Part shown: positions 19,734 through 64,000 of the stretch, one piece after another
Numbering within the stretch: position 1 is the first letter of the stretch
Layout of the letters: every line of letters starts with the position of its first letter
Made by a program: the position numbers and the translations under genes
Assembly: GCA_964017185.1 (NCBI GenBank)
Contig: OZ024869.1
Coordinates: forward strand, 64,308,931 to 64,372,930
DNA length: 64,000 nt
DNA from: Rugalucina vietnamica
Taxonomy: Eukaryota; Mollusca; Bivalvia; Lucinida; Lucinidae
Direction: 5' to 3'
Notes under the pieces: model-generated
What the model saw: the letters and a program-made list of their open reading frames with translations, nothing else
What the model was told of the DNA's origin: nothing
Databases searched by the model: none

Positions 19734-19881
19734 CATAATAAGCCTCTTTTCTTTCTTCATTCGTTTTTATTCTTCCTTTTTTTATGGAGTCTATTTAGCA
19801 GTACGCTGAAAAAAGTTGTTCAGTACTGGCGATAACTGGTAGACTGGTAGACCCAGACAGATGAATGTTGCATTATCAAAT

Positions 19882-20055
19882 GAGCCGCGTCACAAGAAAA
19901 CCGGATTTTTGCCTATGCGAAAACAAAGGCGCAGATCAGCTTCGCAGTAACTGCGAAGCTGATCAGCGCCTTTGTTTTCGCTACACGGATAGTACACTTT
20001 CTCTTCTTATTAAATCCGAAATTTCAAGCTTCTATGCTGCTTCGGGGACTGGTCA
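19882..20055. mobile_element. Hairpin MITE family M, copy 2 (right part lost)
   Basis: Starts GAGCCGCGTCACAAGAAAAC and has the 65-bp palindrome at 19917-19981 with almost perfect arms. The right third is replaced after about 20055 by the SINE body. Confidence 0.8.
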
Positions 20056-35654: not shown

Positions 35655-35878
35655 GAGCCTGTGCGTGAGAAAGCCAACAATTTGGGTTTCCGACAAGGTG
35701 TGACACAAACTGGTCTGTGCAGCCACAGAGGATGGCAAGAAGCTTGAAATTTCGGATTTAAGAAGAAGATGAATAGTAATATCAGTGTAGCGAAAACAAA
35801 GGCGCTGATCAGCTTCACAGTAGATCTGCACCTTTGTTTTTGCATAGGTAAACATCCCGTTTTCTCATGACGCGGCTC
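35655..35878. mobile_element. Hairpin MITE family M, copy 3
   Basis: GAGCCTGTGCGTGAGAAAGC to CATGACGCGGCTC. The central palindrome is eroded on its right arm, which shortens the element to 224 bp. Confidence 0.8.
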
Positions 35879-36050
35879 ATGTTCTTCAGTATGTTTGAGA
35901 TTCGATGTCAAAGGATCACAGCGCCTTGCTAATGCGGATTGAGCATCCCGACGCAAACAGGCACTGTCATGACATAACCGAAAAATTGTAGAAAATGCCG
36001 AAAACCAAACATACATGTTTATCTGTATGCCTGTTAAGTCTGGCCTTTGG

Positions 36051-37288: not shown

Positions 37289-38930
37289 CTTCTCTTTTCA
37301 GTTTAAATTATGGTCTCCTCTAACCAAGACATTATTTTGTTTATCGTTTGCAGGGACATTGTTCCTCTGGTTCTGAGTTGTGACTGTAATATTACCTACA
37401 ATTTCGTGGAACAAGGTTACTTCGAGCAATAAATAAAGACTTCAGCTGTATATTTTGCTTACACTCCGATGCTATCCTGAGAGAGCTTTTGCAAATGAGA
37501 CAAATATAATATGATTGTCTGTGACAGCTATATAAAAGTTGTGTCATCCGATAAACTGTCATTAATAATGCAGATCTTTTACGGACGCAAATACGTTCTC
37601 AGCCATTTTAACCATCCTTATTATTGCACTGTTGAAATGAGCAATTCCATTAATTTAATTTTTTGGACCTTTAGAAATGTTTATGGTGAAGCAGAAACCG
37701 GTGCTAACGGTACCAAAGGCGTTACCTAAATCAGAATGAGCTGAACATTCGCACTTCTAAAAAAGAACGACGCGAACAACCGAGTGGGCAATTTTTCCCC
37801 CAATGCTTATGCAATAAAGTATAACAAAACGTACGATTACCATAGCACTCAGGTCAGAATTTGATAAAATCAGTTAGAATTCAGAATTGTTTGCTAACCC
37901 TACTATTTCTGGATATGGCACTATTTGTTCCTAGAACATCATGGTCTGATTCCATCTGCTTTGCCTTTTTGAAGTTGTTATCGATTAATTAATGCACTTT
38001 GAATCGAAACTTGTGAACAAATTCCAAACCTCTTTTGTCCATCGAGAATATAAAATCCAATTAAAAAGAAATATTTATCTGATCAAACTTCGCAAAGTTG
38101 ATGAATAAATAACTGAGTTCATAATGTACTTAAGGCATTTATCGATAGAACAACAAACAATATGGAGCAAGACAAACATACATTGCTTCAAATATTTACA
38201 GACCTCTATTTTCCATATATATGCCAATCTTAACATGGTCCCCGGTTAAAAAACAATCAAAAAGAAACTCATAGTGCCTCGAAGTGACTCACTACAAAGC
38301 ATTAGATAAAAGGGTTCTTTTTTCTGCGTCATTTTATCATGAAAATAGCTTTTCTTTTGAAGCTCCACATATTTTGTAAAGTCATTCCGAAATGCACCCG
38401 ACAAATGCAAATAGAACAGTATTAAAATTTGCTTACAAGTTTCACGTTTATACTTATTTTGAAGAAAAACGATTTTGCCAAAACCATTTTGTTACAAAAA
38501 TATTTCTCCCGGGCTTAAGCATTAAACAGGGTATTTCCGGTTTCAAATTTCCTGCACTGTCACTATCCAAATCACATCACTATCAAATGCAAACGCGGGT
38601 ATCCTAGAACTTTCTGTTTTATAGATGTATTTGTGTATTTTATATTGTGATATGTGGAAATATAGTACGACTTGTATGGCATGACGTTAACTATTTTGAG
38701 CAGTATACTTTACCATCAGTAAGTGAGGCTAAAGCATTAGCAGTTAGTAACAAAGCTAAAATTATTGTGTACATAATATCTAATTGTGATACATGCTATA
38801 GGCAGTGAAAGCCGGGACGTTGACGTACATTATTGATGCACATGTATATATAGTAATTGGAAGAGAGACCCTAAAATGTTAAATAACAGCCAGAATAAAA
38901 CACTTGCAGAAGCAAAATATACTGTACACA
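37289..38930. other. No gene or repeat recognised
   Basis: AT-rich unique-looking sequence. Short frames only. Confidence 0.45.
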
Positions 38931-38933
38931 TAA

Positions 38934-39167
38934 GAGCCGCCTCATGGGAAAACCAACAATCCGCATATGCGAAAACAAAGACGCAGATCAGCTTCGCGGT
39001 AACCGCGAAGCTGATCAGCGCCTTTGTTTTCGCTACACGGATAGTACATTTCTTCTTCTTCTTAAATCTGAAATTTCAAGCTTCTAGCTTGCTTCTGTGA
39101 CTGTACAGACCGGTTTGTGCCATACCGGTTCGGAAACCACATTGTTGGTTTTCCAACGAGGTGGCTC
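38934..39167. mobile_element. Hairpin MITE family M, copy 4, ATAA target duplication
   Basis: GAGCCGCCTCATGGGAAAAC to CAACGAGGTGGCTC, flanked by ATAA at 38930-38933 and 39168-39171. The central palindrome has near-perfect arms. Confidence 0.88.
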
Positions 39168-39460
39168 ATAATATGATTCAAGAGCACAGTCTACTATAGT
39201 GATGACATTATAGTCACAGCTAATGAGGACAAATGGGTAGACTCTTCCATACAGGGATGTGTTATACATCCTAAATCACCAATTTGTCTGAATAATTGAT
39301 AGACTCGTCCAAGATGCTGGCTGTAATTCAGAGTACGCCACAACATGAATAAACATGGTATTTTACACCCAGTTGTCCATCGCTGCCTAAACTAAACACT
39401 GTCATCAATCCGTTCTACTGATCACTCAGTGTGTGTCTGGGACGTTAGGTACCCAAAATG

Positions 39461-44700: not shown

Positions 44701-45499
44701 TATGCTTTATTCTTTTTGCACGCCGGTGTGTCTGGCATCAGACTCTATGATGTCCCCGACTTACTATTCATTTTAGTTGGTTGGAGTCGAAGCTTCTTGT
44801 CTGTTGGCCCACCGGAGTTTTACTGGTGTTTTCTTTTGCTTCGGTTTTCAGTAAGTAATTTGGCGCCCAGTCATCTCCATCGTCGGGCAGCTTAATGAAT
44901 CTGTGAGTCCTCGTTTTTGATTCATCATCATGGTAGTTATCATGATTTATTTGTTTGTCCTTGAAGATTCATTGATTAGTTAGAGATTTGCCACCAGGAC
45001 CGAACAACTAAGTAAATGAACCGCTGCAGAAAATGAGTGTGAGGTTTGGGTCCAGTAAAACCGGTTTAAACCCCCCAAGTAATTTTATAATACTGATCGT
45101 TCCAATGCGATAGCTCGGTTGTTGTTTTATTTGTTTTATGTATTGGAGTCGAATTTTTGTGCTGTTTGAACCTTTGTATTTTTTTTAAATATTTTAGTTA
45201 AGTTCGCCGGGTAACTTAGTGGCCGCTTATTGGAAAATAGCTGCACACTCGGCTTACGGTATGTTATCCTAGTAAAAGTACCTCATTGTCAATTTAGTTT
45301 TTTCCCCATCTCGATTGCATCTTTTCCTGATCATTTTTTACTTGTACATATTTTTATTATTATTATTTTATTATCTTTATTTATTTTTGTATTCATTTAC
45401 TTAATTAATTTAAATATACATAATCACTGTCATGTTTTATATTACAAGGACGTTTTTTTCACAATGGTACATGTTTATGTCATAGTGTTATATTTTCAG
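44700..45499 (+). other. Likely 5' untranslated and upstream region of the precursor gene
   Basis: The coding part starts one base after an acceptor, so a 5' non-coding exon is required. One candidate donor is TTTTCA/gtaagtaa at about 44851, after a 44700-44850 stretch with no repeat signature. No TATA box or initiator could be assigned with confidence. 45300-45420 is T-rich and AT-rich and looks intronic. Confidence 0.25.
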
Positions 45500-45593
45500 G
45501 ATGGAAATCAAGGTATCTTACTTGTTAGCAGTGTTGGCGTCACTAATGATGGTCGCACAGGTGTTTACATCACCCATTGGAGATGCAAGTCAG
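45500..45593 (+). CDS. Precursor gene, first coding exon: start codon and signal peptide
   Basis: The acceptor is TATTTTCAG at 45491-45499. The exon opens with G and then ATG at 45501, so a non-coding 5' exon must lie upstream. It encodes 31 residues beginning MEIKVSYLLAVLASLMMVAQ, a typical signal-peptide composition, and ends in phase 0 at CAG before gtatta. This start was chosen because the ATG directly follows the acceptor and opens the hydrophobic leader. An overlapping 162-residue frame at 45230-45718 runs across the acceptor in another frame and is not the gene. Confidence 0.72.
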
Positions 45594-46746
45594 GTATTAC
45601 TAACTTTATGAAAGACGATTTATTTTATTATCTGTGTACTTTTTTTATTTCTTTATTTATTTTTGATTTAGCATGCATATTTTACCATGTTTTATCAAGT
45701 AATGCAGATAATACATAATACAGAAAACAATCAATCAATCAATTTATTTTTCTTTTTTAAGAAAAGCAAAATCAAGTAGTCATTTATCAAACCTGGAACT
45801 CCTTAAGGTGGAAAAGACGATAATTTTATAGAGCGCTCAGATATCAAATTCAAACTGATGATGTTGATTATAATTTGAGCCGCATCATGAGAAAACCGGA
45901 TTTTTGCCTAGGCGCAAACAAAGGCGCAGATCAGCTTCGCGGTAACCGCGAAGCTGATCAGCGCCTTTGTTTTCGCTACTCGGATAGTACAATTCCTCTT
46001 CTACTTAAATCCGAAATTTCAAGCTTCTAGCTCTTTTCTGAGCTTGTACAGGCCGGTTTGTGTCGGACCTGGTCGGAAACCCCGAAGACCGGTTTTCTCG
46101 CGTCGCGGCTCATTTTATATGCCACCACTGTTAGAAAGTAAATTCTCTTCTTCCTGGCACCAGACAGAGAAAAGAAGAAACATAAGACAATCAAAAAGTA
46201 TGTATAACTTCTTTTGCCTCTGCATCAGGAAAACATGTCCGTGAAATGTGTACAACCTTGAAACCCATTTTATATAGAAAGACTGGGGTTTGCAGGGGTA
46301 TACATATTTTTTTTTCGTATTTTTGATCCAAAACATTAGATTGTGGGTACTCACTCGTTAGAACCGCCTCGCCCCACAATGTTTAGAGCAAAAATAAGAA
46401 AAATATATATATAAAAAAATTCTGATGAAATTTTCAAATTTTTCAGCTGAACAAAACATCTCTGTATATTGCATGGGCAAGTTGTCATAATGGTATAATT
46501 TCATATGACATCATAATTCGGTAAGAGTAAACTAAAACATTTTTCTTTCAGGGTTCAGACATACAAGAACAGAAGAGGCCTAAATACATGGACACAAGAG
46601 ATTTAGACTACTTCAAAGACCTGCTCATGTTTTCTTTAGACGAGGTGAGAACATCTGGATAGCATGTTCATAAAAAGTATGCCCCCTTCAAAACCTTTTA
46701 CATAGAGAAACTGGGATCAACAGGGTTAAACATGTTCTTACCTTTG

Positions 46747-46777
<31 letters not shown>

Positions 46778-49700
46778 CGATCGTGGGCACCACGGCGGTT
46801 CTAACATGTACCCAGAATCATTATTTTGAGCAAATAAGATAAATATTAAACATTTTTCAGCTTCAAATTTTCAATTTTACAACTTTGGAAAAATATCTAT
46901 ATAAACAGTAAACTTTACAATGGGAGATTAAAATTATTTGGCTTTTTGAGGCAAAGATGTCCTCAGTTTTGGCAGTGAAATATAGGGAAACTAGTTCAAG
47001 ATGTATTATATCTTCTCGCGTGTGTTCTATACATGTCCTCAGTTTTGGCAGTGAAATATAGGGAAACTAGTTCAAGATGTATTATATCTTCTCGCGTGTG
47101 TTCTATACATGTCCTCAGTTTTGGCAGTGAAATATAGGGAAACTAGTTCAAGATGTATTATATCTTCTCGCGTGTGTTCTATACATGTCCTCAGTTTTGG
47201 CAGTGAAATATAGGGAAACTAGTTCAAGATGTATTATATCTTCTCGCGTGTGTTCTATACATGTCCTCAGTTTTGGCAGTGAAATATAGGGAAACTAGTT
47301 CAAGATGTATTATATCTTCTCGCGTGTGTTCTATACATGTCCTCAGTTTTGGCAGTGAAATATAGGGAAACTAGTTCAAGATGTATTATATCTTCTCGCG
47401 TGTGTTCTATACATGTCCTCAGTTTTGGCAGTGAAATATAGGGAAACTAGTTCAAGATGTATTATATCTTCTCGCGTGTGTTCTATACATGTCCTCAGTT
47501 TTGGCAGTGAAATATAGGGAAACTAGTTCAAGATGTATTATATCTTCTCGCGTGTGTTCTATATTCTAATAAATTTTCCAATTACCAGCTCATTTTTGGA
47601 GCTATAATAAAGGAAATAAGATTATGCTATTGTTTTTCATATTCTTAGCTAATATAAAAGAAATATATTAGTAAAGAAATAACTTATTCTATGGCACGGG
47701 TCATTGTGTTCGTCACTGGCATCTTCAATTATTTCCTTAAATAAAACAAATATTATCTGATGTATGGCATCAAATCGAACATGATGTAAACTACATGTAT
47801 GCAGATACTTTGAAGGTCATCTATCTGCGTTCGTTGCCAGCATGTAACAGATCACTGATGAGGATTTATAACACGAAATTTGAAATATGAACCACCCTCT
47901 TTCTTACCTTTTAACTGCTTCACAACGGAACAACATCTTAATAGAGTTTAATTCATGCTTATATATAGTTGTATGTGTTTCTAAAAGTTTGATGTGATCT
48001 TAGTATCGCAGACCACGTTGTTTGATTATCACTAGACTAAATAAATTCTTAATAATCTTAAATTCTCAGTTTGGTTAGTGGAATTCAGAATATTAGCGAG
48101 ACTTTTAAAGTTTTAATTCTATCATACCAAGTCAATCCAAACATTTCACAATCTTAAGCTTACTGCTAGATCTACACGTAGATTTTATTTCAAACCAATA
48201 TTATCAAACAAGCCGCCACATATCAACATTGAGTTACATTATCAGAATCGCGAAACAGGTCAAGTCACGTGATAAGTTTTAGTACGGATCATTACAGTGG
48301 TTTTAATTAGGCATATACGGTGCAATTAAAAGCTTCCTAAAATTTTCGCAATTCAAGTCTAATAGGTGTGTCGGAGTATTTTAAAACACTGTGGCAATGC
48401 GCAAAATGTACCAAAATAAAATGGCAAAATAAGCTTCCCAGATAGCACGTATACATTGGCCCTCCATTGGCCCATCGGACGCCGCACGATTGGCCCATAG
48501 TTGTAAATCTTGAATGGGCCAACGTAGCGTTTGCTCATCGGCCCATCTTTGGCCCATAACATTGGTTCTACATTGGGCCAATCATGGCTAAGATTTTGCA
48601 TTTTTTGTTGGCCCATCACTGTTTGAATGTGCTCATTACAAGCTATCGACGATGTATTTCTATCGCATATGGTCCACTCGGTACAGTTTCTTGATCTGCA
48701 GCACCATGTTGACAGTCGAGCTTGGTCTCTTGTCTTTGGAGAAGGTAAACTCTTCATTTTTCGTTTTCTCTGTGCTGGAGGTCTTCTGAAAACAAACGAA
48801 TAAATACAGCACCATGACAAAAACATAAACTAGCCTCATTTATGCAACATTTTAACGCATGTATTTTAGCTCATAAAGGAATAGCTGTTAAAGAAATACA
48901 TGTTAAAACTAAAACCTCTTTGTTGCAACGAAGTATATAAATTAATGAAGTACTCGTATATAATATGAAATCAATTATATTTCTGCCTTTAATAAGATGG
49001 AGAAACGAGCTTAATTAGTAATGCAAAATAATAAATAAAACTTACCTTCTAAACCTCTGTTTCTTAACATGCAAAACTGACTTCTCTAAAACTTCACGCG
49101 AAACACCTGTTAATAATTCTCAAATGCCTGAGAAATTTTCTCGTTGCTATGACAACTGATGTACTCTTGTACTCTGGCTGGAGCAGCGAAGCAAATAATA
49201 AACTACAATGTTATGATGTTACAGTGAAAAGGGTGTTAACTTTAATTTTGCTCCCATTGCTTACTAAATATTTACAGAATAGATATACAGTAAATTAAAA
49301 TGGCCTGGTCAAGGAAGTAAGTGTTATTTAAGATAATGGTTTTAAAATCATTGATGTTGATTTACATATAAATCATAATAATTATTTTATAATAGATATA
49401 TAAATTGAAACTATGAGGAGACCGGACTGTTTATTAAGTCTCTTTATTGAATAAGATTTAAAGCCAATTAATCGATTACAAATTAACACCAGTCAGTATT
49501 TAATCATATACGAATCGGCCAATGACATGCCAACCATCGGCCAACGGAAAGTGTACACGACAAGTTTTTATTTACTTTCTAAGGCCCCTTTGTATGAGCC
49601 TTGTCATACAAGCTCACTACAGTTAACACTTTCCTTATATATATGTCAATTCGAACTTAAACTATTATGCATCAATGTCATCTAAACTACTAAACTTAAA

Positions 49701-52700
49701 AAAAAAAAATAAAAGATCAACACAAAATCAACAAACATTGTACAACATCAACTTTTATTACAATGGCTAACGAATATTGGGCCACTCTTGTTTCTGTGAA
49801 AGAAAATCACTTTCATGATCCGTTGCACTATCAGATCGTTGGCCATAATTGGGCCAACGTCGGCAAATATTGCATGTGAATGCACTACTACACCAACATT
49901 GGCCCAATCATGTACATGCGACCGCAACCAAACGCCAATTACCCAATCAATATGCAATGTTGGCCCAATGATATTTGCTATCTGGGTTACAGCATATACA
50001 AATGTACTTTTAGTGAGGAACTGCTGACTGTAAATACAAGAGGGATAGGTTTGCTTTTTTGAATATAATCAATAGCGCCTAAGAATCATTCAGAATTTAT
50101 CAAACTCTTTCAAGAACAGCTTACTCATCTTTCTAGGTTTTCAATTTCATCGCTTGTAAAGCTAAGTCTGGAGATAAATATACGTCAAGGAGGAAAATTA
50201 TAGCTTTCGGCCTAATTTCTGTCACCACTTAAGAGAATTCCAGGCGATTGACACCGGGGCAATCAAGAGGAGGATAGTAAATTTCACGGTCAACGCCATC
50301 ATTTCAATTAGTGAGCCTGTCATCCCAGGCTAAAATTAAACCAAATTATATGTTTGGCTGGAATACCAAAAGCTAACATAACCAACGATAGTCAGACTCA
50401 CGAGTAATTTAAGTTAGAAAAAAAAAAACAACAACAAAATATCTGGAGGCCGATACTGGTACTGAAAGGTATATATACTGGCCCCATGTGCTAACCGATC
50501 ACCCTAAAAATCGCGATAAACGTTTTTTTCTGTTTAAGTTATAAATTATGACAGAAATTAATATCGAGATACCAAAACACCAAAACCGTTCATTTCTGCT
50601 AGAAGTGCATGTCTGCTAACAATGGGATAGCAAAAACGGTAAAAAATGATAATTTTTCGACATTGCAACTTTAATTTGTGTTAATATATAAAACACTCTT
50701 GCTATTTTTTTTTTTAATTTTTATTTTCTTTTAAAAAGCAAAATTCATTAACAGATATGGCGTGTCGATTTTATCAAAGCTATAATGACCGGGTTAAATG
50801 GTGTGTCAGTCTTCGATGACGGCCATATGCAAAATTTTCGTACTGAGTAAGGTTGTATATACTTAAAGCCCATCTTTGAAAAAGTGGGGCTACACTGGAT
50901 TCACCCTGTCCTTCCGTAGTTCTGTCATTCCGTCATTCCGTTATTCTGTTATTCTGTCATTCCGTTACCACTCATAACTTGAGAACCAGTTGTTAGACTT
51001 CAACCAAATTTGGCATATGCATCAATATTGACAGTATCTTCATATGTGTCAATGCATGTCATTTTCCCCAAATTTGTAGAAGAGTTATTGCCCTTGGATG
51101 GCCCTTCATTAATGCCAGAATTTCGTTTCCGCTCAATATCTTGAGAACGAATTGACAGAATCTGACCAAATTTTGTATGCACATCAACATTGACAAGATC
51201 TAGCTTAGGATTGTTGCCCGTCATTTTTTGCAATATTTTAACAGAGTTATGGCCCTTGATTGACGTTAGAATTTCGTTTCCGCTCAATATCTTGAGAATC
51301 AATTGACAGAATCTGAATCAATTTTTGTATGCACATCAACATTGACAAGATCTAACTTGCGATAGTTGCCTGTCATTTTTCGCAAAACTTTGACGGAGTT
51401 AACGGCCCTTGATTGACGTCAGAATTTCGTTTCCGCTGAATATATTGAGAACGAATTGACAGAATCTGACCAACTTTTATATGCACATCAACATTGATAA
51501 CATCTAGCTTGGGATTGGGCATGTCATTTTTCGCAAAATTTTGACGGAGTAACGGCTTTGATTGACGTCAGAATTTCGTTTCCGCTCAATATCTTGAGAA
51601 CGAATTGACAAAATCTGACCAAATTTTGTATGCACATCAACATTGATAAGATCTAGCTTGGGATAGTTGCCTGTCATTTTTGCAAACTTTTGACAGAGTT
51701 ATGGCCCTTGATTGATGTCAGAATTTCGTTTCCGCTCAATACCTTGAGAACAAATTGACAGAATATGACCAACCTTTTTATGTGCATCAACATTGACAAG
51801 ATCAAGCTTGGGATTATTACCCGTCATTGTTTTTCTCACCCTGAAAACAGCTCAGAAGCGGGGCTATAGTCAGATCCTCTGACAATTCTAGTTAAGACTG
51901 CAAATCAGGCGTCCGGTAAGCGCCGCTCTCTAGATGAAAAGGGGAATTGCTTTACTTATCCACACTTTCAATCGAATGCTGCTCCTGACTTCAACTTCAA
52001 AGTCACGACCGTCACGTTGGTCACCTGTGAAGCCAGAGGGCCAGCCGTAATGGCAACAAAGCTAGCAAATAATAAAGCCTGGCTGTTTGGTTTCTGAACG
52101 GGATTACCTAAACAAACATTGTGAAATGGTTAGGAGATACTAGTAACCTCGAGCAGACAATTTCAGAGAAAGATGCCCACCAGATTTATCGCGTCAATAA
52201 ATGGAGTCTAAATCAACTGGTTTGACGGCAATAATACTTAATCCATTTCTAGATCACTGCCTAATCTAGGCTTTACCAATCACAGCGTGTGGTCTCAACT
52301 TCGTCGGCTAGCTTAATTGACTGCTGAATTGAATGTTAGTGATCGAGACTCTTGTCCTTCATATACAAATGATTCCAGTCTCTGAGATACTAATGATACT
52401 ATAGATTAATCAGCAATTGAATTCTTTAAAAGCAGTTTTATTGTTTCAAAAGTACGATCATTTATCAACAGAGTAATTTTAAAACAAATCTTCTGAATGG
52501 AACTTATTCAGTTGTAGAGACAACGCCATCTTATCGAAATTGAGTTTCTTATTTCAGCAAAACCTTAGCATTACAATTTGATTAAATTGAATTTTCTTTG
52601 TCCACATTCATTAACTAGCAGAAACGTGTAACAATTCAAGAAGTTTTTTCCTAAGAGAGTTGTATTAAATGAAATTTAGGAGCTCAAATCTTTCAAGGGA

Positions 52701-55700
52701 TTGGTTTAATCAAATTTTGGTTATTCACAAGCATTGACGCGTCGGAAATCTCACCGTCTATCGAAACTAACAGAACATTATGCAAACATACGCATCCAAT
52801 TTGCACCCCATTCCCGTTTTGTGTATGAAATATTTATTAAACAGTGTTTCATAATCCTTACCTGCTTTAAAAATGCTAATCATAGATTGTTGATACATAT
52901 ACATGTTAGATGGTTATAATAAACCGATTTCAGCAGTTTGAGTATTGTCACAGGTGAGAAACACTTGGTATGGAATTGGTGACGCACAATATAATTCTGC
53001 CTGAAGTTGAAATGAAAAATTCGAGTTTTCTCCTATAATACCATTTACTCTTTTGACTGATATATAGGTGCAGTCAATGCAGAAATTGAACATTTATTGA
53101 AGGAATCCAGATTATTTCGTTTTCGCAAACACTTTCGTCCCATGAACATATAGTGCTTCCAACACAATAGCATTGAAGTGTTTGCGAAAACGAAATAACC
53201 GGGATTTCTTATGATACGTTCTTCAATATAATTATGTTCAATTTATCAGTCAGTAGAAGAAACGCTGTATGAGAAAACTCGAAAAAATAGCATTAACTTC
53301 GTTCTCAGTTGCAGTGTGTGTCACCGATCATTTATCGGTTTGTATGTATACAATACCACGCGATTGTCAGTAGTGACTATACTCGCGGACCCGCTCCTTT
53401 AGGTCTACTGGTGTTTGTACTTAGCAGCGAACGTATTTTATGAAAATCAAAATTGGCTTGTTCTCATTACTTTAATAAATATTTATTTACTTTTTTTTTG
53501 ATCTGCAAACGTTTACGGTTTAAAGACATTTGGTTTAGTACTTTTTAATGTGTGCAAATGCTTCATACGAATTATTTGATGCACAATCTGTAAATCTGTG
53601 ATATATGTATTCTGTTTTAAAGTAAATTTTAGCTTTTCATAAGTTTGTAATTGTATTGTTTTATGTATTATTATAAAATATTATAAAATGTATCTTATGT
53701 ATAAAACAGTGTCTCATAAGCCAATTATCGGCTGAGTATCAACCGTTTTATTGTGTAAATTGTTATATGCTTGTAAAGTTGATATGTGACACTACAATAA
53801 ACTATTACTTGGTTTAAACACTAGTTTATTGATAAATTCACATATAGCAATAATGACAATCAATAAATCAAAGGATCAGAAAACAAGCTTCAAGGAAGCT
53901 TATATGAATCTTCTCCTAAAACTATTACTTACTTACTTACTTACTAATGAATTTGGATTTTTTTTTCAACACCACATGATTTTTGTTGAGGCCAACTTTT
54001 AAGGATAAAATAAACGAATTTTTAAGGAGAACATTGACATCACTCAGCTTATTTTGTCCAATGTCAAAGTAAATCACATTATTAAAGACAGAACAATTTG
54101 TCATCCAGAACCATTAGTAATTTGAAGATTTATAATTACAATGAAAACCGTTTCTTCTACATTTTCCCCAATTAGAAAATTATTAGTGTTTATTTCCCTT
54201 GTGAATAATAAACCTCAACCGTAGTCTTTGAAGTTCAATTTTCTTATTAATTATTTTGCATCTCAATGATCTTTGGACCCGTAGAACCGCACGAAAGATA
54301 AAACATATCAATTTTCATACTGTTTTTGAAATGTCGAATTCCCTCGTTGGATAATTCCAAGGAACAAATCACATGACCTAACGAAACTAGATTGTAACCA
54401 AGAAAAAAAAACACGCATTTTACACTGATGCTAACATGATAATAAGGTCACACGAAGACGACAGCAAAAGATGTCGATTATTACCAGCACAAATATGCAG
54501 TAATTGAAATTTTGCTACTCCCTAAATCCTAAGTTTTAAACGTCCGACCATCTTCAGTGGCGATCTTAAAGCAGTGTACTATGATTTTATTTCAGTTAAT
54601 CGATGAACACAAAATCAACCCCGACATATTTGTTGTTGATTCCAAACCTGCAGTCAAGAGAGCCGGTCACATCGGTCTGTGCTACAGAAGAACAGCCTCT
54701 GGGTTCAGCGCTCAGCCATGTTGGAAAGGGGATGGTAAGTTCACCAGTACTTTTATACCAAAAGTTATTTCTAAAAGATGAAAGTTTAAAAACAATCATG
54801 GTAATGCTTTAAGTTAAAGCAATAAATTACATGTTTCAAATTAAGCTATTCAGTTTTTCTGTACTACTTCCTTAAGGGGTGTGTAGCAGTAAATTGTAAC
54901 TCGTGAACTCCATCAAACATGTACTAGTGTGTAAAATCCATGACACTTGAAAACATAAATGTTACATTTCCGATGTCACCCACATATCTTCTGAAGTTGA
55001 CATCAGATTAAAGTGGTGCCATTTAGTGCTTTTTAGATCAGGCTTTGAATTTTTCAAGTATAAAAACATCTTTATATTCAGGAGGAAATTAAAGAGATTT
55101 GCATCATCAACTAGTTGTTCAATGTTAAGTAAATCTGGCGATAACAAGACAAAATATTCAGACCAGTGACATGTGTGCGCACGGCAGATTTTGCGCTTAT
55201 CAATCTTCCTAGTTGCGGCAACTTGCGATTGACCTCGGTACATGTACTCAACAAGTGAAGTTGGTGTCCAGACTGATCACAGATTGTACTGGGTGTGCAG
55301 ATATTTTCTTTGGTATTTTTCTCTCAGCAGCACAAAAACATGCTTACGTGATAAAGTCCTTGAGGTGCAGAATCAATCTTTTCTAAAAGCACTTAAGATA
55401 GAATTTTGTTTGCTGCTTACAATTGAGAATTCTATGACATATTGTATATTTGTCATCTTAGTTGTAAAACAGCATTTCATTGCACAATAAAGTTCCAAAG
55501 GAATTCTAAGAAATTATTTTGAACATCAAACTCGTTCAATACAATCTGATTGACTGCTAAATGTATGGCTTCTATAAACGAGCAATTCAATCTCTAATCA
55601 GGCAGAAGTCGACATTAAGTAAACAAGCACGTCCCTATATAACACCCACTAGAACCAGATAAGGGAAACCTTCATCCTTTCTGTAGATTAAATGTTAGTC

Positions 55701-58700
55701 ATTAAGATGTGAATCAGGTTAAAGACCCAATCACTTCCAGCAGATCAGAGATAATGATAGACTATCGGTTCAAGTTCCAGAAATTATCGTAGAATGTGTT
55801 AGAAAGAAAACATGACAAAAATTTCAAGATAAGTTCTGCAAGAGCAAATGTTATGATATACATGTACATATTATCTGAAGGCAGTATATATATGCAAGTA
55901 CAATAGACACGTCTCAATGGATGTGAATGTCATGATATGTTTTCAGATAAAAATGTTTGCTCTCGAACCGAGGGCAACATAATTAATGGCGAATATTGCC
56001 AAACATTATTTTGATGTTCCAGACTGACAGAGATCACTGACATTGCACCTGTGTACGATGTTACAATGTTGATTGCCGTACTCAGTTGTCATTTTCAATA
56101 GTTTTACGTGCATTATGCATTTCCTTTAAACAAAAACAAACCACTTCGCGTTTCATATTTATTTACATGTTCATACATCAAGCCTCAAATACGTTTGGTC
56201 TCCAGTAAATATATTAATGTGTACAAGAAGTAAATTATAAATGTGTCACAATAAGTGCTAATTTACATAGCATGCGTTCTCGCATTCACACACTGGTTTC
56301 AATGAACTGAGAATGGGTATAATGGTTTGGGTACAGATGTGCGAAGCGACCATTACGTCAGTACTTTGTTCTGGAATTGACCGAACGTTAATTGGATGGT
56401 CGGTTTCTTCTAGAATAGCAACATCGACACCATTAAATAATCTTAATTAGAACTCTGTGACACACATGCCAAGTTCAATTACGTACCAAGATATCAGTCT
56501 GGCGGAAAATTGTGACTGACACGTATATCCATCATTTCTGAAGGGAGCATGCATTTTTCTATCACTTGTAGAATTGAACAATTGCAAAATAAAATGCCAT
56601 AGAGAATGTACACTTTTATCAAGACGGTTTGTATTTATTGGTATATATTGAAAACAAAAACAACAAGAACAACAAAGCAAAAGTTGTATTCTTTTTACAT
56701 CTTGTCTATTCACGCCCAATATTCTTGAACAAAACCAATGACAAAAACAATTTTAAAAAGCATACTCTTTATTTTTAAATTGCCTGTTTTGATTCCGATT
56801 TTTGTTAAAAGATATATGAGCCACCGCATTAGAAAACCAACAACATACATAGGCGAAAACAAAAACGCAGATCAGCTTCGCAGTAACTGCGAAGCTGATC
56901 AGCGCCTTTGTTTTCGCTACACGGATAGTACAATTCCTCTTCTTCCTTCATCGAAATTTGAAGTATCTAGCTATCATCTGTGACAGTACCAGCTGGTTTG
57001 TGTCGGGCCTGGTCGGAAGCCCAAATTGCTGGTTTTCTCACGCACAGGCTCATATGGAAGTTCCAAGGAGTGCCATATTATTTAAGTTTTTACAAAGTAT
57101 TCGAGGCGAAATCATAAATATTTGGCGGAAAACCTAGTCACATAACAATATCATGTGATCATTGTGTTTTTGTTTTTTGATTCAGCTAGGCAACGTATTT
57201 CAGTAGGGATATGTCATTTTGGTAAACGTAGGTTATGTACTAAACTCATAACTTCAGGATAAAATGATGTATTTTCTCAGAAAATATTTCTTAGAATTTT
57301 TATAGGTTTCTATCATGGCCATTTGATTGATTTAATGCCTTCTGGTGTTTTTATTCTCAAAAGTTAATGGTTTTCTGTTTATGCTAGTCATGATGACTTT
57401 CAAGAGCGTTATGCTTTAATCATTCTGTTTGTTTAACAGCTTAATTATTCGAATGAGTGACGACTTTATGGTATCCCAAAGGTATAGTGTTTCATACTTC
57501 TTAGGTTGCACGTTCCTTAAATAACTGTGTTAGAGTTTATTTAATATCATAAATGCTAGAGCATGCGATCTAGAGAGATTTTTTTATCCTTTTTTTCACC
57601 AATCTTCATTATAGCATGAATCGTCAGTTAAGCTAAGACCATGTATATCTGGAACATGTTACTGGTCACAGAGACCATGTTCATTTTTGACCAACTTGCA
57701 TTCCAACACGGCGGGATTTTTTATGTATGCTTGCTCACAGAAAAGAATGGTTCTTGTATTTTGTGTTATCTAGTTTAGATACTAAACAAAGTTTAGTTAA
57801 TTATTCCATCTACAAAATCATTTCATAATTTCAAATAATGTTTGCATTCGGCGTTTATTTCAGTTTTGTTTATTTACTTTTGCAAATACATTTGTCATTT
57901 CCTTTCGTTAAATTCTTAGATATTTCATATTTATAGTCGATTTAGCACATTTTGATCACCCTCATGAAAATTTATTATTTTTATAAATCATAGAAAATGA
58001 GAAGAATTCAAATATGTTGTAAATTTTGCTGCATGCCAATTTGTTCATTAATTAATAAACCATACGTCAAAAACCTTACAGGCAATCGTTTTAAATTCAA
58101 CTGAAGTTGGATACACTAAACTGCAGGGCGGATATTTTCAGGGCATAGATGCCCTTTTTTCGGAAGGAGCTATTACGCCCGCCATTTCTAGATAACCATT
58201 AAAGCGAAATAAAATTTAGTTGTCTTAAACTGCGAAACTGAGAACTATAAGGTGATATATTTAGCTTTCAATTTTGATGGCTGAGAGTTAAATATATTGT
58301 ATTTAATACATTCACATGCTCAAGGTTCACAAAAACAAGACCTTTGATAACTAAAAAAATGCACAGGTAATTGCAATTTAGTTATTTCATTGACCAGTCA
58401 ACACATCCGTTCCGTTAACGCACTAAAAAAGAAAGAAAGAAAAAAAAATCTGGCACAGATATAAATTCTTAGAATGTTCTTCGGAAGGCGTTATGACGCC
58501 CGCCATTTCTAGATACATGTACATATTTAGAAACGAAATTAAAGTTTAGCTGTCTGTCGTACATGCAGTATTTAACTTTGAAATAATAAAAATGAAGGTG
58601 ATGGATCCAGCTGTCCATTGTAGATGTCCTGAGCCAGGTCAGAGTTTCCCTGGAAAGAATGTTATACTACATCCTCCCAAAGACAATAACAAGTCCACGT

Positions 58701-61200
58701 TCAATCGTATAGTTTAATAAGTACTACCCAGGTTCATACTACATCTTTATTTACTGCTTTAGCTACAACCAAGATATCTATTCAGGAAAGCGCGCACGAC
58801 AGTTTTATTGGTAAACGTCATGCATCAGGTTAAAGGTTGTTTCCTTTTTAGTTTTGTAAGAAAGGTGTAGTGTGTGTTTTGCATACTTTAGCCAAATAAG
58901 TGAACAGCATAAGCTTTGGTGCGCTATTTCTTAAAATGTATTTTTTTGACCCCAAACCAAACATTAGAAAAGATGTCTTAACTCCAAATGATACTCAGTA
59001 CATTATGTAGGCGCCATACCTAGCCGATTTTAACACGCGATTATTCGGTGAGGATCGTGAAGACATCGGGCCATTCGTGAGTGCATCGTTACCCATCATA
59101 TGTACATCGGGAGATTTTTAAGCCTTCGGCATCACCATCGCGAGCGGCACCAAAATCTTTGACATGCCAAAAAATACAGGAAGGACACACAAAGGTTCAA
59201 TTTCGTGTTGAATTCGCGAGTATATCTTGGCCTTCGCAAAGCCATCGTGAGACCATCTTATCACATCGGGGCTGTGGTCATCGGCACCATCGGCTGTTTT
59301 GCTACACGGAGGCAATATGGTGACCGATTTTGTTAGGAAGGCAACACGACATCGTGTGGCCTTCGCAACGCCATCGTACATGTATAAGCATCGTATTTCA
59401 AAAATCTAGAACACAATGGCATAAGGATGGAAACACGATATTAACAAAAACTTTTTAATATTTCCCGGGGTAACGTGGACATACAAAAATATATAAATAA
59501 ATAAATAAAAAATCAGCACCCACACAACATTTTTCTCAGAAGTCTCACGTGGAATACTGTTAAATCATGGCGTATTTCGAGGAAAAAGAAGGCTGCAGCA
59601 CTGCTTCTATACATGCAGCTGGAGCATGACCAAAAACTCCTGCAGGAGCAACATCATCTCTTACAGGTATTTCGTTTGTTTATTACTATGTTTTTGAGCA
59701 GCACTCTGTTTTCTTTCTAGTAGACTAGTACCCATTGCAGAATTCGACAAACGAGCGTTTTAACTACTGACTCAAGATCAGTTTTTTGTCAGTTTCATGC
59801 GAAAGATGGATTTAAAGTACTATCAAACTGTCACCATGAAGCTTGAACAGTGTTGTGAAGTAACTGATATTAATTAATTAATTAATTATTACTATGGACG
59901 TCAACAACGAAAGCAAACAAATAAGATGTTTTCTCAAAAGAGACCATGTTTGCACGCAAATAAAACTGGGGCTCATTCAACCACCAGCCTACATGGGATG
60001 GTTATGATAAGAAATTAACACCCATATCTGAAAGTTTCTTTGTATTTTTAAAAAGGATTTACTTGCATTTCCTGTTCCACTCCAAACTTTCTCTCCAGGG
60101 TACCACTTACAGAATCCAGTCCAATACGGCAGCCAATGGACACTCCAAGACTCCAAGTCTTGACTCTAACCCATAAAATACACAATGCCCCTACAATATA
60201 CATATTTTACTATTTGTGGTTAAACATGTGATATAATATCAATGCTCAGCCCACATTTTACATTACATCGGGTAGTCACGCGATACCTTCGGGACACATT
60301 CGGGAATACATTATACACCTAACACGATGTCGTCAGGCCATCGTGAGACCTTCGTGTACCATTCGCATCAACATCGTATGCAAAACTACCAGTTCCTATA
60401 TCTTCGTGAGTGCTTCGAGTATAATCGTGAGCTATTCGTGTGTCCATCGTGTGTCCATCGTGTGACCATCGGTAGGCTTCGTGTATGCGTCGACTCAATA
60501 TTGGCTTTTGTACCAAATTAGTGACGAAAATCGCGCGATATTCAAAATTTCATATTTGTGTGGCCATCATGTGTCAAAATCGGCTAGGTATGACGCCACC
60601 ATAATAATGAAACGCAAAAGGTATATTTTCTGCCATAACAATTTTAAAGATAACTATTTCAAATTTACAGAAAACGAATAATGACATGTCTGAATTCCAT
60701 ATTTTTTTAAATACGGAAACATTTTTTTTTCTGTGTCAATAAAGAGTACCCATAAACAAAAAGTCGCAATAATTTGTGGTGATGAATACTTTTTGTAACT
60801 CCTTTAAAACCTCTTCTATTCACTTCTTTGTCTTAAAACAAATTCATCATTCGTAACTCAGAATTGAGCTTGTGTGTCACTCAGACTATCTTTTTGGCTG
60901 CTATAGTCAACAACATGAATAAGTGGCCAAAATGCTCAGATCGATGGTCAATCTGGCACACTTTAAAAAATTGTGTCATAAGTAAAAATTTGGCTTGGCT
61001 GCAAATGGTATGATTAAAAACTTCTTTCAGAAGAATAATACTGTCTAAAACACGGCAGTATACTTTTCATAAAATGTAACGCACCTTACATTTTGACCAA
61101 ACTTGGCAAAATTTTCAGAACGTAAAAAAAATAATAAAATCAATAAAGATAAGAAAATAAAAAAAATAAAACAATAAATAAAATAAAATAAAATAAAATA

Positions 61201-61255
<55 letters not shown>

Positions 61256-63064
61256 AGGACTAGCGAATTGCAAATATCCCACATTCACTGCGAGATTCTT
61301 GGCATGTTTTTGGACCCAACTTTTTGCTTACATAGATGACCATATTTGGAAAATAAATAGATTAATACATGCAACTGATAAATTATAATCTTTGCATGTA
61401 GACGCTGCCAGTTCACCTAAACTGACATGCTTAGAAACCTAAAGTGTATCTAAAACACTTTGAAAACGCCTCATTTACTTTATTGAATCTTATCACCAAA
61501 ATACACGATACATGTATATCGGCAATAATATACTCCTCAAAAAATTCTAAGGGCCAATGTATTATTTCCCATATATTGTAGTTTCAGGTACCCCAAGTTC
61601 AGCTCAAATTAAATTGGAATCCCACAGGACGCAGATACCCCTTTGCATTTGCATTATTTTTTATATTGCCTGGAAGGTTATGAATGTAAGAAATTTAAAA
61701 CAAAAAACACACTGCCAAAACCTGTATGGAATTTTTGTTTGGCAAATCTGAGTTTGTTTTTTTTTTCCAAAAATTGGCATTGTTTTTTGAAAATCAGCTA
61801 AAACGTGACATTTACACGCAAGTGTTAATTTCACAGTAACAACATTTGCTGCAATGCCTTTAAAAGTGACTTTCATGGAAAAAAAAAAAACTTAAGTTGA
61901 ATTGACGTGAATCTGTGGACTTTCAGAAAAATGCCATAATTTCAAGTTTTTTGAAAAAATGCAAAAACTGTTCCATGGACTTTGGGAGGACATATGCTTT
62001 TTCAAACTTCTTTTAGTCAGTTACTTCGAAGTATTATCTGAAACAAATCAAATGAAACAGGCATTCTTTGACCGTGAGTAGTGCCATTAAATTTTGGTTA
62101 AGTATTGGGTGCTTTACACAAGAATATATGGAAAATATTACAATGGCCCTTAGATTTTTTGAGGAGTATATATTTGAATTGACACGTACAGTCAGTCTGC
62201 TTAACCTCATTACCAAAACCGAAACGTCACTGCAAGTTATAAACGTCTTACACATTGATTTCAAGCGTTACACAATTTTCTACAAAACCACATTCAGCAG
62301 GTCTAACATGATTTCTGAAAATAAACACCGAACGCAAAGCAAATTCTGTTGGTTGGCTTTCATTTGCACTAAAACGTGGTAATTACGTCACTTTAACGTT
62401 TATTAAGAAAACTTTTTTTTGGTCGTGCAAACTGAAACAAATTCAAACGTTTTTGAACACACTACAGAGGTACGGACTTACGTAAAAATATCATCACAAC
62501 TGTTGAAGCTGCATTTTGACCACTTTACGCTTAACGTCAGCAAAGAACGCTAGCACTATAAACCACATTGAAAGAAAGCACCCATTTTAATTTTGCTTTT
62601 TCTTGTGCTTAAGGTTGTTAACTATCACAACAGAATGCTTGTTTATTGTATCCGCTGTTAGGTTTTCTTACGTCTCGATGACGCCTGTGAAAACAGCTAT
62701 AACAAACAAATCAACTAACGAAATTTTATGGATAAACATAGTTTATGGCATTAAGATATACGATACTCTGTTTATTTTATACATCAGCTCACCTTTGAAA
62801 AGTTTTAACCAAACGATACATATAAACAATTAGACGGAATATTTCCATCGGTATTCCGTTAAACCTCTCCGAACGAGGTACCGAAGTGGAGCGGAGTGAC
62901 AGTTAGCCAGCTGATCTAATAAACAATGTAAACAATGTAAAGTGAGGCGTTTTCAAAGTCCCTTAGTATAACAAACCAAATAATCGTGTTGAGCACAAAA
63001 TTGTACAGCTTTCCCATAACACCAATGGATAATTTTTACTTTTGTATTTACAGGAAGACGGTAA
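45501..63064 (+). CDS. Spliced gene for a secreted peptide-hormone or neuropeptide-like precursor (111 aa model)
   Basis: Model: CDS join of 45501-45593, 46552-46644, 54596-54734 and 63054-63064. Every junction is GT/AG and the phases agree (0, 0, 1). Residues 1-24 look like a signal peptide: Lys4, then a hydrophobic run at 6-19. Residues 25-62 form a linker with Lys-Arg at 39-40 and acidic helical-looking sequence. Lys83-Arg84 precedes a C-terminal peptide, residues 85-108, with Cys91 and Cys104 (twelve residues between), Arg-Arg at 93-94 inside the loop, and the end PCWKGD-GRR-stop. Known biology of such precursors: convertases cut at KR, a single disulfide may form, and Gly before Arg-Arg is an amide donor. 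I do not recognise the family. The PCW motif recalls melanin-concentrating hormone, but the cysteine spacing differs. The gene would act in the secretory pathway. The three long exons are well supported; the last is less certain. Confidence 0.7.
45877..46111. mobile_element. Hairpin MITE family M, copy 6, ATTT target duplication
   Basis: GAGCCGCATCATGAGAAAAC to GCGTCGCGGCTC, flanked by ATTT at 45873-45876 and 46112-46115. It sits in the first coding intron of the precursor gene. Confidence 0.9.
46229..46483. mobile_element. MITE family N, copy 4
   Basis: AAACATGTCCGTGAAATGTG to ATTGCATGGGCAAGTT, between the hairpin MITE and the second coding exon. Confidence 0.7.
46552..46644 (+). CDS. Precursor gene, second coding exon: linker with a Lys-Arg site
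   Basis: The acceptor is TTTTTCTTTCAG and the donor GAG then gtgaga; length is 93 nt with phase 0 at both ends. The translation starts GSDIQEQKRPKYMDTRD and continues with an acidic, helix-like stretch ending FSLDE. The preceding intron (45594-46551) carries a complete hairpin MITE and a 255-bp MITE. Another MITE and the 76-bp tandem array follow downstream. Its clean phase-0 frame between strong splice sites marks it as a real exon despite the surrounding repeats. Confidence 0.75.
46662..46915. mobile_element. MITE family N, copy 5, diverged, with a poly-A insertion
   Basis: CATGTTCATAAAAAGTATGC..GGCGGTTCTAACATGTACCC..CATTTTTCAGCTTCAAATTT match the family. A run of about 31 A (46747-46777) replaces part of the centre. 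Confidence 0.6.
46961..47568. repeat. Eight identical 76-bp tandem units
   Basis: Units start CCTCAGTTTTGGCAGTGAAA at 46961, 47037, 47113, 47189, 47265, 47341, 47417 and 47493. I see no difference between complete units. Each carries CTTCTCGCGTGTGTTCTATA. The array is in the second coding intron of the precursor gene. Confidence 0.97.
47569..48436. other. Intronic; one 380-bp-repeat fragment
   Basis: 47850-47945 (CACTGATGAGGATTTATAAC ... TTTTAACTGCTTCA) is a diverged end of the 380-bp repeat. Nothing else recognised. Confidence 0.45.
48437..49986. mobile_element. 1.55-kb TIR element with TTGGCCCAAT-type motif clusters
   Basis: CCCAGATAGCACGTATACAT at the left and, inverted, CCCAGATAGCAAATATCATT at the right. 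Within about 170 bp of the left end and 240 bp of the right end are many copies of TTGGCCCA / TGGGCCAA in both orientations, giving a dense palindromic coat. The middle is plain AT-rich. A 56-residue plus-strand frame (ATG near 48628) is too weak to call. No target duplication is clear; superfamily unassigned. Confidence 0.7.
49987..50860. other. Intronic; nothing recognised
   Basis: AT-rich sequence with short A and T runs. Confidence 0.45.
50865..51891 (+). mobile_element. Helitron-like non-autonomous element with ~150-bp tandem core
   Basis: Five to six units of about 150 bp share ATTTCGTTTCCGCTCAATAT at 51119, 51270, 51423, 51572 and 51722. The 3' end has the hairpin GTCAGA-TCC-TCTGAC at 51869-51883, then AATT and CTAG followed by T, which is the Helitron 3' signature. 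CATTCCGTCATTCCGTTATT at about 50927 gives a short pentamer-like run on the 5' side. The layout resembles HINE and pearl-type elements known from flies and oysters. The 5' end is approximate. Confidence 0.65.
51892..52975. other. Intronic; nothing recognised
   Basis: AT-rich sequence. Confidence 0.45.
52976..53327. repeat. ~350-bp imperfect palindrome (fold-back MITE)
   Basis: The inner arms TTATTTCGTTTTCGCAAACACTT (53112-53134) and their exact inverse (53178-53200) are 23 bp and flank a loop of about 43 bp. Outer arms with TTCGAGTTTTCTC (53021 and inverse near 53282) and GGTGACGCACA / TGTGTGTCACC extend the pairing. Confidence 0.75.
53328..54595. other. Intronic; nothing recognised
   Basis: AT-rich; short (ACTT)n at 53929-53945. 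Confidence 0.45.
54596..54734 (+). CDS. Precursor gene, third coding exon: Lys-Arg site and two-cysteine peptide
   Basis: The acceptor is ATTTTATTTCAG and the donor is the strong gatG/gtaagt. The exon is 139 nt, entering in phase 0 and leaving in phase 1. The translation begins LIDEHKINPDIF, reaches the cleavage site AVKR and then the peptide starting AGHIGLCYRR and ending PCWKGD. If the intron is not removed, the frame continues GDGKF...ISKR and stops at 54781. That alternative also leaves Gly before a basic residue. The open frame spans 54557-54781, but the part before 54596 is intron. Confidence 0.75.
54735..56810. other. Intronic or alternative 3' UTR; nothing else recognised
   Basis: If the third coding exon reads through, the stop is 54779-54781 and AATAAA near 55484 could end the transcript. 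An 82-residue frame (55242-55490) has no other support. Confidence 0.35.
56818..57051. mobile_element. Hairpin MITE family M, copy 7, ATAT target duplication
   Basis: GAGCCACCGCATTAGAAAAC to CTCACGCACAGGCTC, flanked by ATAT at 56814-56817 and 57052-57055. Confidence 0.88.
57056..59001. other. Intronic; one short internal duplication
   Basis: CGGAAGGAGCTATTACGCCC..GCCATTTCTAGATA at about 58160-58200 recurs at about 58482-58515 with similar flanks. Otherwise plain AT-rich sequence. Confidence 0.45.
59002..60606. mobile_element. 1.6-kb TIR element with CATCGTGAG / CTTCGTG motif clusters
   Basis: GGCGCCATACCTAGCCGATT at 59010 and, inverted, GGCGTCATACCTAGCCGATT ending at 60597 give about 30-bp terminal repeats. 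The outer 380 and 340 bp consist of degenerate CCATCGTGAGACC and TTCGTGTG motifs in both orientations. The AT-rich centre has a coding remnant at 59568. No clean target duplication was found. Confidence 0.7.
59568..59666 (+). pseudogene. Exon-like coding remnant inside the 1.6-kb TIR element
   Basis: Thirty-three sense codons read WRISRKKKAAALLLYMQLEH then DQKLLQEQHHLLQ, ending at CAG before gtattt, a donor-like border. An ATG one base upstream (59567) is in another frame, so a small frameshift separates it. A short basic run followed by Leu/Gln/Glu-rich helix recalls the start of PIF/Harbinger transposases; that is an impression, not a domain match. Confidence 0.4.
60607..61202. other. Intronic; nothing recognised
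   Basis: AT-rich; (TAAAA)n-like sequence at 61170-61202 leads into poly-A. Confidence 0.45.
61203..61252. repeat. Poly-A tract (about 50 A)
   Basis: Uninterrupted A run following (AAAAT)n-like repeats. No retroposon body was recognised on either side. Confidence 0.95.
61531..62168. mobile_element. TA-flanked MITE with ~29-bp terminal inverted repeats (638 bp)
   Basis: TACTCCTCAAAAAATTCTAA, continuing GGGCCAATG, at the left pairs with CAATGGCCCTTAGATTTTTT then GAGGAGTA at the right; TA lies at 61529-61530 and 62169-62170. Mariner-type by target and end style; no transposase seen. Confidence 0.82.
62169..63053. other. Intronic; short repeated motif near 62880
   Basis: CGAAGTGGAGCGGAGTGACA then GTTAGCCAGCTGATCTAA matches 28776-28818. 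The rest is plain AT-rich sequence. Confidence 0.4.
63054..63064 (+). CDS. Precursor gene, candidate last coding exon (completes Gly-Arg-Arg-stop)
   Basis: The acceptor is TTTTTACTTTTGTATTTACAG, ending at 63053. Joined to the phase-1 end of the third exon, the first two bases complete a Gly codon, followed by AGA, CGG and TAA at 63062-63064. The C-terminus would be Gly-Arg-Arg, a classic amidation and trimming signal. The exon was found by searching for a compatible acceptor 8.3 kb downstream, so chance agreement cannot be excluded. An AATAAA at 63377-63382 fits as the poly(A) signal. Confidence 0.45.
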
Positions 63065-63400
63065 ACATCTATATCTGTGAAGAAATGGTGAAAAAGTGAT
63101 GAAAGACAGTGAAATTGTGTCAAAATGTCATAACAAATGAGCCACCATATGAACAAAACGTAGATTGTACACATAGCGAAGACTTAGATTTAAATTCAAA
63201 TTGATGAACAAGTCAAGCACTCTTCACTTCGAATATCTGTCTATACTTCCAATGTCTTTAGGGTGTAAAAGATGATTTCTTTCATTTATCAAAATGAATA
63301 TTTCCCTCATTTTGAGCAATTACAGGCGCACGCTGTCAGCTCACTCAATCACTTGCATGTGGTGGCTCATTGTGACAATAAATTTTCTATACATTTAAGA
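63065..63400 (+). other. Candidate 3' untranslated region of the precursor gene
   Basis: The sequence after the candidate stop has no continuing frame and contains AATAAA at 63377-63382, about 310 bases downstream of the stop. A second AATAAA lies at about 63893. If the read-through alternative of the third exon is used, a different AATAAA near 55484 would serve instead. Confidence 0.35.
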
Positions 63401-64000
63401 TTTATCATTACTCATAAAAACAAATACTTATTTCATACTGCTTAAACAGTTCCTTTTAAGTGGTGTTTCGAAAGACAACGATGCCATGGATCTCTGCAGA
63501 TTTGGAGTAGAAATTCTAAATCACACTGAAAATAATTATTGGAATATTGTTCATGCTATTCCAAAGCTGATAGATACACTTAATGTTTGTGTGCACTCAA
63601 CATTTTGACAATGTTCACTTTTTTATCTTCTGTGTTCGTATAATTGTGTTTTTCATTCACTGGGCTGCAGGACTCCGCAAACATTCGGCTATTGCTGTAC
63701 CGAATTATGAAATAATAATATTATATTGTTAGTATACCACTGTAAGCTGTATATAGCTGGCAAAAAGATATTTATTTCTAATGTTAACACGATAATTACG
63801 ATTTGATAAGAATTATCACCAGGAACTTCTATGAAATACGCTCATCGTCAGTTCTTATTAAGTTACACAAAGTATGTTTGGCGTGACTTTGATAATAAAT
63901 AGTCGTTTTCAAGATTCCTCGCTAGCGTTGAATTATTCATTTTTGAAGGACTTGCACTTTGGCAAAATGGTCAAGATATAACACGATACTATTCAAAACA
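63401..64000. other. Downstream flank; nothing recognised
   Basis: AT-rich with a further AATAAA near 63893. Confidence 0.4.

Follow-up and report, generated by a model that had tools for sequence, protein, structure and literature searches.

We analysed a window of 64,000 nucleotides (nt) from the lucinid bivalve Rugalucina vietnamica (contig OZ024869.1, positions 64,308,931 to 64,372,930 of the forward strand), in which a gene for a neuropeptide precursor of the whitnin family, also known as PKYMDT, is spread over 17.5 kb. All coordinates are positions in this window, and the exons were located by direct reading of 44.5-48.0, 54.4-54.9 and 61.5-64.0 kb. The gene has four coding exons on the plus strand, which when spliced in frame give a precursor of 111 residues. 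The original prediction, made from the letters of this DNA, had described three strong exons joining in phase; their coordinates and phase hold, but the coding exons number four once the mini-exon at 63054-63064 is counted. The coding features are these:

45501-45593, plus strand: coding exon 1, 93 nt, ending in phase 0; start codon, signal peptide (approximately MEIKVSYLLAVLASLMMVAQVFT) and the start of an SPTR-like N-terminal peptide (SPIGDASQ); aligned to the homologs P0001-P0003.
46552-46644, plus strand: coding exon 2, 93 nt, ending in phase 0; the rest of the N-terminal peptide, Lys-Arg, PKYMDT, Arg and the start of an acidic spacer (DLDYFKDLLMFSLDE).
46579-46596, plus strand: the segment of exon 2 coding for PKYMDT (CCT AAA TAC ATG GAC ACA), flanked by Lys-Arg and Arg; the family signature.
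54596-54734, plus strand: coding exon 3, 139 nt, ending in phase 1; the end of the spacer, Lys83-Arg84, the ring peptide AGHIGLCYRRTASGFSAQPCWKGD and the first base of the amidation Gly codon.
63054-63064, plus strand: terminal coding mini-exon, 11 nt including the TAA stop; the remainder of the Gly codon and Arg-Arg, which form the amidation and cleavage signal, followed by the 3' untranslated region.

Every intron between these exons has GT-AG borders, and 8.3 kb separate the mini-exon from the ring exon. Beyond the stop codon, matches of the AATAAA/ATTAAA type lie at 63377 and 63894. An AG at 45498-45499 stands directly before the ATG of exon 1, which suggests that an untranslated exon exists upstream.

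The precursor reads MEIKVSYLL...QKRPKYMDTRDLD...KPAVKR AGHIGLCYRRTASGFSAQPCWKGD GRR*. From the N- to the C-terminus it consists of a hydrophobic leader, SPIGDASQGSDIQEQ, Lys-Arg, PKYMDT, Arg, the acidic spacer, Lys83-Arg84, AGHIGLCYRRTASGFSAQPCWKGD and Gly-Arg-Arg. The hexapeptide PKYMDT sits between Lys-Arg and Arg within KRPKYMDTR (residues 39-47), and the ring, Cys91-X12-Cys104, lies downstream of the dibasic Lys83-Arg84. The signal cleavage position was set by analogy with the SPTR prohormone of Lymnaea rather than by a prediction tool. The Gly-Arg-Arg-stop that ends the ring peptide is formed only when exon 3 and the mini-exon are spliced, and P0001 has the same end. The original prediction of a secreted neuropeptide precursor is thus borne out by the spliced reading frame, in which the signal peptide, the dibasic Lys-Arg sites, the two-cysteine ring and the amidation signal are all seen, Lys83-Arg84 and the Cys-X12-Cys ring being just as it had placed them.

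The same prediction had called the gene unrecognised. It had, however, overlooked that exon 2 spells KR-PKYMDT-R, the motif that gives the PKYMDT/whitnin/SPTR family one of its names. Because this motif is joined to near full-length homology with named family members, we identify the locus as a whitnin ortholog. In the first protein search (BLASTP), P0001, an assembled protein of 114 residues ending in ADGRR, matched across the whole query with 91% identity (E = 3.9e-61); P0002 matched end to end (E = 6.9e-45), and P0003, isoform X2 of Mya arenaria LOC128238164, with 42% identity at 99% query cover (E = 4.9e-18). Since the source contigs of P0001 are at most 1292 nt long, far below the 17.5-kb span of the gene, they are probably transcript contigs. 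PKYMDT and CYRRTASGFSAQPCWK are identical between P0001 and the window protein; where the two differ, it is in the signal peptide, the spacer or the residues flanking the ring.

A profile built from the window protein and P0001-P0003 returned 38 proteins. Named members among them are Plakobranchus whitnin, Deroceras Pkymdt and, with E = 2.9e-18, the SPTR prohormone of Lymnaea stagnalis. With 34 members in the profile, 60 proteins were returned, among which the whitnin precursors of Aplysia californica (5.6e-35) and Haliotis discus hannai stand beside the SPTR prohormone of Biomphalaria pfeifferi. Also returned were Elysia marginata whitnin and proteins of oysters, scallops, Mya, Dreissena, Ruditapes, Mactra, a chiton and Octopus. 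The names shown were all molluscan, many matches being without a name. Compared directly by BLASTP, the window protein is 38% identical to Aplysia whitnin over 107 aligned columns and 35% identical to Lymnaea SPTR over 116 columns, so that homology to named members holds along most of its length. Residues K39, R40, P41, K42, Y43, M44, T46, C91 and C104 are invariant in an alignment of 34 proteins (the 39 then available minus five fragments). In a tree built without the five fragments, the window protein groups with P0001 (98/91) and P0002 (95/93); a tentative 12-row group (fork 90/79) adds Mya, Dreissena, Mactra and Ruditapes and also takes in the long-branch freshwater mussel Sinanodonta, so that a heterodont bivalve is the likely source.

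It had further been claimed that the ring peptide belongs to no known molluscan family, with allatostatin C, elevenin, CCAP, conopressin, calcitonin/DH31 and GGN listed. The profile searches answer this with named whitnin, SPTR and Pkymdt precursors; as far as names go, none of the six occurs in the names displayed for the 38 and 60 profile matches, many of which are nameless. Melanin-concentrating hormone, suggested by the 'PCW' motif, was set aside on the ground of the whitnin homology, which made it unnecessary. Pfam gave no family match for the spliced precursor, and a search of solved structures gave nine matches, all butyrophilin and none significant (best E 0.45).

Whitnin is known under several names, including SPTR in Lymnaea and PKYMDT or proctolin in Lottia, with the sub-regions SPTR, PKYMDT and ERYM, and several products are predicted from the precursor (York et al. 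2012, PMC3434067). The locus is therefore no new hormone gene but an ortholog of a neuropeptide precursor that was already published for molluscs in 2012, if not before (PMC3434067). Judged by sequence, its ring peptide is the family's C-terminal 'ERYM' peptide. In Haliotis asinina this peptide is given as MYMGICMRQSHNHFIPYPCMRSamide, with a C-X12-C ring, and ganglion masses fit the amidated form, both disulphide-bonded and unbonded (PMC3434067). The scallop peptide reported under PKYMDT, RRHLSYCLRRSGPNFVPYPCYKYGamide, likewise has C-X12-C (PMC5996578).

The likeness to these precursors extends to the order of their parts. As in the window, the whitnins of Aplysia californica (P0039) and Haliotis (PMC3434067; P0053, from H. 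discus hannai) run from a leader and an SPTR-type peptide through KR-PKYMDT-R, a spacer and KR to C-X12-C and a Gly-Arg tail. They are not identical in detail: Aplysia has PKYMDTRR and ends in CLRSGR, whereas the window protein has a single Arg after PKYMDT, a Trp after the second Cys and the end CWKGDGRR. The Lymnaea stagnalis SPTR prohormone (P0024, Q9NJQ5), whose ERYM peptide is stated to be amidated with one disulphide (PMC3434067), shows the same order, but its N-terminal peptide starts with SPTR instead of SPIG, and its ring has mainly G-[IL]-C, one basic residue, F and PC in common with that of the window. The PKYMDT precursors of scallops and oysters, as described in PMC5996578 and PMC4200219 and compared here through P0043, P0044, P0047, P0027, P0029 and P0033, agree in the order of parts and in the C-X12-C ring; the scallops compared end in CYKYGGRR and the oysters in CFRG-stop, compared with CWKGDGRR in the window. 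The Mya arenaria protein (P0003), the sole database-named match of the first search, has a C-X13-C ring and a GRH end and bears no neuropeptide name.

How constant these features are was counted in 63 proteins, the window's included. KRPKYM[DE]T occurs in 57 of them, the other six being partial sequences, and two later cysteines follow in 54 of the 57; the exceptions are two exon 2 read-throughs (P0005 and P0037) and a broken model (P0058). After an intron read-through (P0061) was dropped, 53 proteins remained for the ring counts. The cysteines are spaced by 12 residues in 40 and by 13 in 13 (the spacing in Patella P0049 was recounted by eye, an extra terminal Cys having misled the script), and adjacent basic residues lie shortly upstream of the ring in 53/53. 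Since the searches themselves start from the shared motif, its count is in part a product of selection, and the spacing of the cysteines and the dibasic site make a test less bound by the way in which the proteins were found. Of the 53, 37 carry an amide donor (25 with Gly-Lys/Arg and 12 ending in Gly, although truncated gene models may account for some of the Gly endings). The expectation that relatives would conserve the Lys-Arg, Cys and Gly-Arg positions thus holds for the dibasic site and for the cysteines, spaced by 12 or 13 throughout, but only partly for Gly-Arg, the least conserved of the three. Five of the 53 (P0002, P0007, P0015, P0026 and P0031) have Ala-stop or Ala-Gln-stop where other whitnins have Gly-Arg, as if reached through another terminal exon.

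That the gene is real and more than chance, and that its four exons join as expected for a neuropeptide gene, is clear from the sequence because P0001 matches over its full length with the same DGRR end and because the acceptor of the mini-exon has no equal in the window. An acceptor AG followed by an in-phase Gly-Arg-Arg-stop, AG|G-N-(Arg)(Arg)-stop, occurs once in 64 kb, at 63054, and its chance expectation in 54735-64000 is 0.01 (first-order simulation). The donors of exons 2 and 3 have 7/8 consensus bases, a score equalled or bettered by 0.46% of the GTs in the window, and the pyrimidine tracts before exons 2 and 4 are equalled by 9% and 3.5% of its AGs. Open reading frames from contigs of the European Nucleotide Archive are consistent, as inferred from their translations, with the same borders: the exon 1 match of P0038 stops at ...SSPIGDASQ|V, at the position of the donor; P0005 reads ...FFQ|GSG...ALDE|VR, in keeping with both splice sites of exon 2; and P0004 reads ...SFQ|LIDEHKINPDIF... 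at the position of the exon 3 acceptor. Taken alone, the splice-site scores are mixed and would not have proved the gene, and it is homology that carries the case.

The gene, its splicing frame and its family are thus established, whereas the cleavages, the disulphide and the amide would follow from the customary processing rules of neuropeptide precursors and by analogy with relatives, the supporting masses coming from Haliotis asinina. We propose that a neurosecretory cell would make the 111-residue precursor, remove its signal peptide, and cut it at three places, namely Lys39-Arg40, Arg47 behind PKYMDT, and Lys83-Arg84. This may yield up to three main products: an SPTR-like peptide from the N-terminus (about SPIGDASQGSDIQEQ); PKYMDT, a hexapeptide whose C-terminus would be free (computed [M+H]+ 754.34); and the ring or 'ERYM' peptide, AGHIGLCYRRTASGFSAQPCWKGD-amide, which would bear one disulphide bond and an amide derived from the Gly-Arg-Arg tail (2578.22 when closed and amidated). 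Going further, these peptides might be released from ganglia as modulators tied to reproduction, and PKYMDT might act on a molluscan relative of the proctolin receptor. PKYMDT was proposed to be the molluscan proctolin (Veenstra 2010, as cited in PMC3434067 and PMC8557429), and arthropod proctolins, set beside the window by description only, are non-amidated peptides usually with a terminal Thr (PMC8557429), as proposed for PKYMDT. Among the matches listed in a search of literature titles, with subscription papers mostly outside its scope, none paired a molluscan receptor with whitnin or PKYMDT. That the precursor yields up to three peptides rather than one is likely by analogy with its relatives; the single-peptide hormone of the original prediction is accordingly doubtful, given the several products predicted in PMC3434067, but finds a counterpart in the snail Reishia, whose whitnin is counted in PMC10036341 with one predicted mature peptide, which was identified.

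Besides Reishia, several observations weigh against this account. At the locus, the donor of exon 1 is weak (5/8 consensus bases, with 24% of the GTs in the window scoring as well), exons 1 and 3 have acceptor tracts of ordinary quality, each equalled by 19% of the AGs in the window, and the precursor is known here from gene sequence alone. In the family, an amide donor is missing in 16/53 proteins, so amidation is common but not universal. As for the peptides, PKYMDT itself is reported as undetected by matrix-assisted laser desorption/ionization in Haliotis asinina (PMC3434067), oyster PKYMDT is listed among precursors yielding extended peptides with uncut internal sites (PMC4200219), and the link to a proctolin receptor is a proposal, the ligand of the spiralian proctolin-type receptor being described as unknown as of 2021 (PMC8557429). 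Even so, we regard it as almost certain that this gene is whitnin's bivalve ortholog, listed elsewhere under the names PKYMDT, SPTR prohormone and proctolin-like precursor, with processing probably as proposed.

Could the gene instead found a new, unclassified family of single-peptide amidated hormones? The lack of a Pfam match might suggest so, and name-based annotation would miss the many orthologs labelled 'uncharacterized' or 'hypothetical protein'. However, KR-PKYMDT-R in exon 2 and a homology with named whitnin, SPTR and Pkymdt precursors that spans almost the entire length refute this idea, to which we give practically no credence. It is also very improbable that the locus is a whitnin pseudogene or a silent copy instead of a working gene. 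Such a reading could draw on the fact that the gene is known here from the window sequence alone, but the four exons are open and in phase with GT-AG introns, and PKYMDT and CYRRTASGFSAQPCWK are unchanged relative to P0001.

A third possibility would add to the preferred reading, a working whitnin gene, rather than replace it. It is tempting to speculate that the amide is optional, alternative terminal exons yielding either an amidated or a free-acid ring peptide. The amidation signal is carried by a terminal coding exon of 11 nt, with 8.3 kb between it and the ring exon, five family proteins have the Ala-stop or Ala-Gln-stop ends described above, isoform X1 or X2 appears in the labels of several NCBI entries, and intron 3 contains, at 57440, an AG|CTTAA acceptor whose pyrimidine tract is good. 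However, AG|CN-stop sites number 5 in the region against 6.2 expected, so that the candidate at 57440 is no evidence, and AG|CN-CAR-stop sites number 0 against 0.27 expected. Moreover, amidated and non-amidated ends were never found together in one species, the position of the last intron is known from the window alone, and some of the ends that lack the amidation signal may stem from faulty assemblies or gene models. We therefore consider an optional amide unlikely. In its fullest form, the idea would make whitnin a ring hormone with a splice-controlled C-terminus, in which another terminal exon would give a free acid of altered or no receptor activity and the arrangement would have been kept from bivalves to snails; this we also think doubtful.

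The identity of the locus is thus settled, and a supposed new hormone family is removed. What is added is a bivalve gene with its full coding-exon structure, in a family that has been linked to spawning and to lunar timing in other animals. Over the two-week spawning cycle of abalone, the transcripts of seven neuropeptide genes change, those of whitnin among them (PMC3434067), and in Platynereis the prepro-whitnin protein varies with circalunar phase (PMC6377233); in oyster larvae, the precursor serves as a marker of posterior neurons (PMC10396302). According to PMC8557429, no PKYMDT ortholog is known from other lophotrochozoans, contrary to the reports of whitnin in Platynereis (PMC3890597, PMC6377233), and PKYMDT/whitnin has been placed in the stem protostome (PMC6425005). 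Automatic annotation tends to miss the family, since many orthologs, that of Mya arenaria included, are 'uncharacterized' or 'hypothetical' in databases and Pfam has no match for the window protein.

For the rest of the window, a Pfam search of 10 of the 33 listed open reading frames gave just two weak matches, under the curated cut-off, and neither transfer RNAs nor matches to Rfam families were found in it. Intron 2 holds eight perfect tandem copies (100% match) of a 76-bp unit at 46957-47563. A dispersed repeat of about 200-250 bp is present in seven copies on both strands (approximately 11150-11385, 19854-20051, 35651-35896, 38915-39170, 40473-40716, 45851-46122 in intron 1 and 56812-57055 in intron 3); most copies have a self-complementary core of about 65 bp, and from its sequence the repeat looks like a miniature inverted-repeat element. 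Two satellite-like arrays lie upstream of the gene, one of 32 copies of a 48-bp unit at 32632-34177 (94% match) and one of 27 copies of a 56-bp unit at 3084-4584 (85% match), the latter containing apparent long open reading frames at 3444-3944 and 4001-4336. A large imperfect palindrome of 1.5 kb, at 4989-6487, matches its own reverse complement at 67%.

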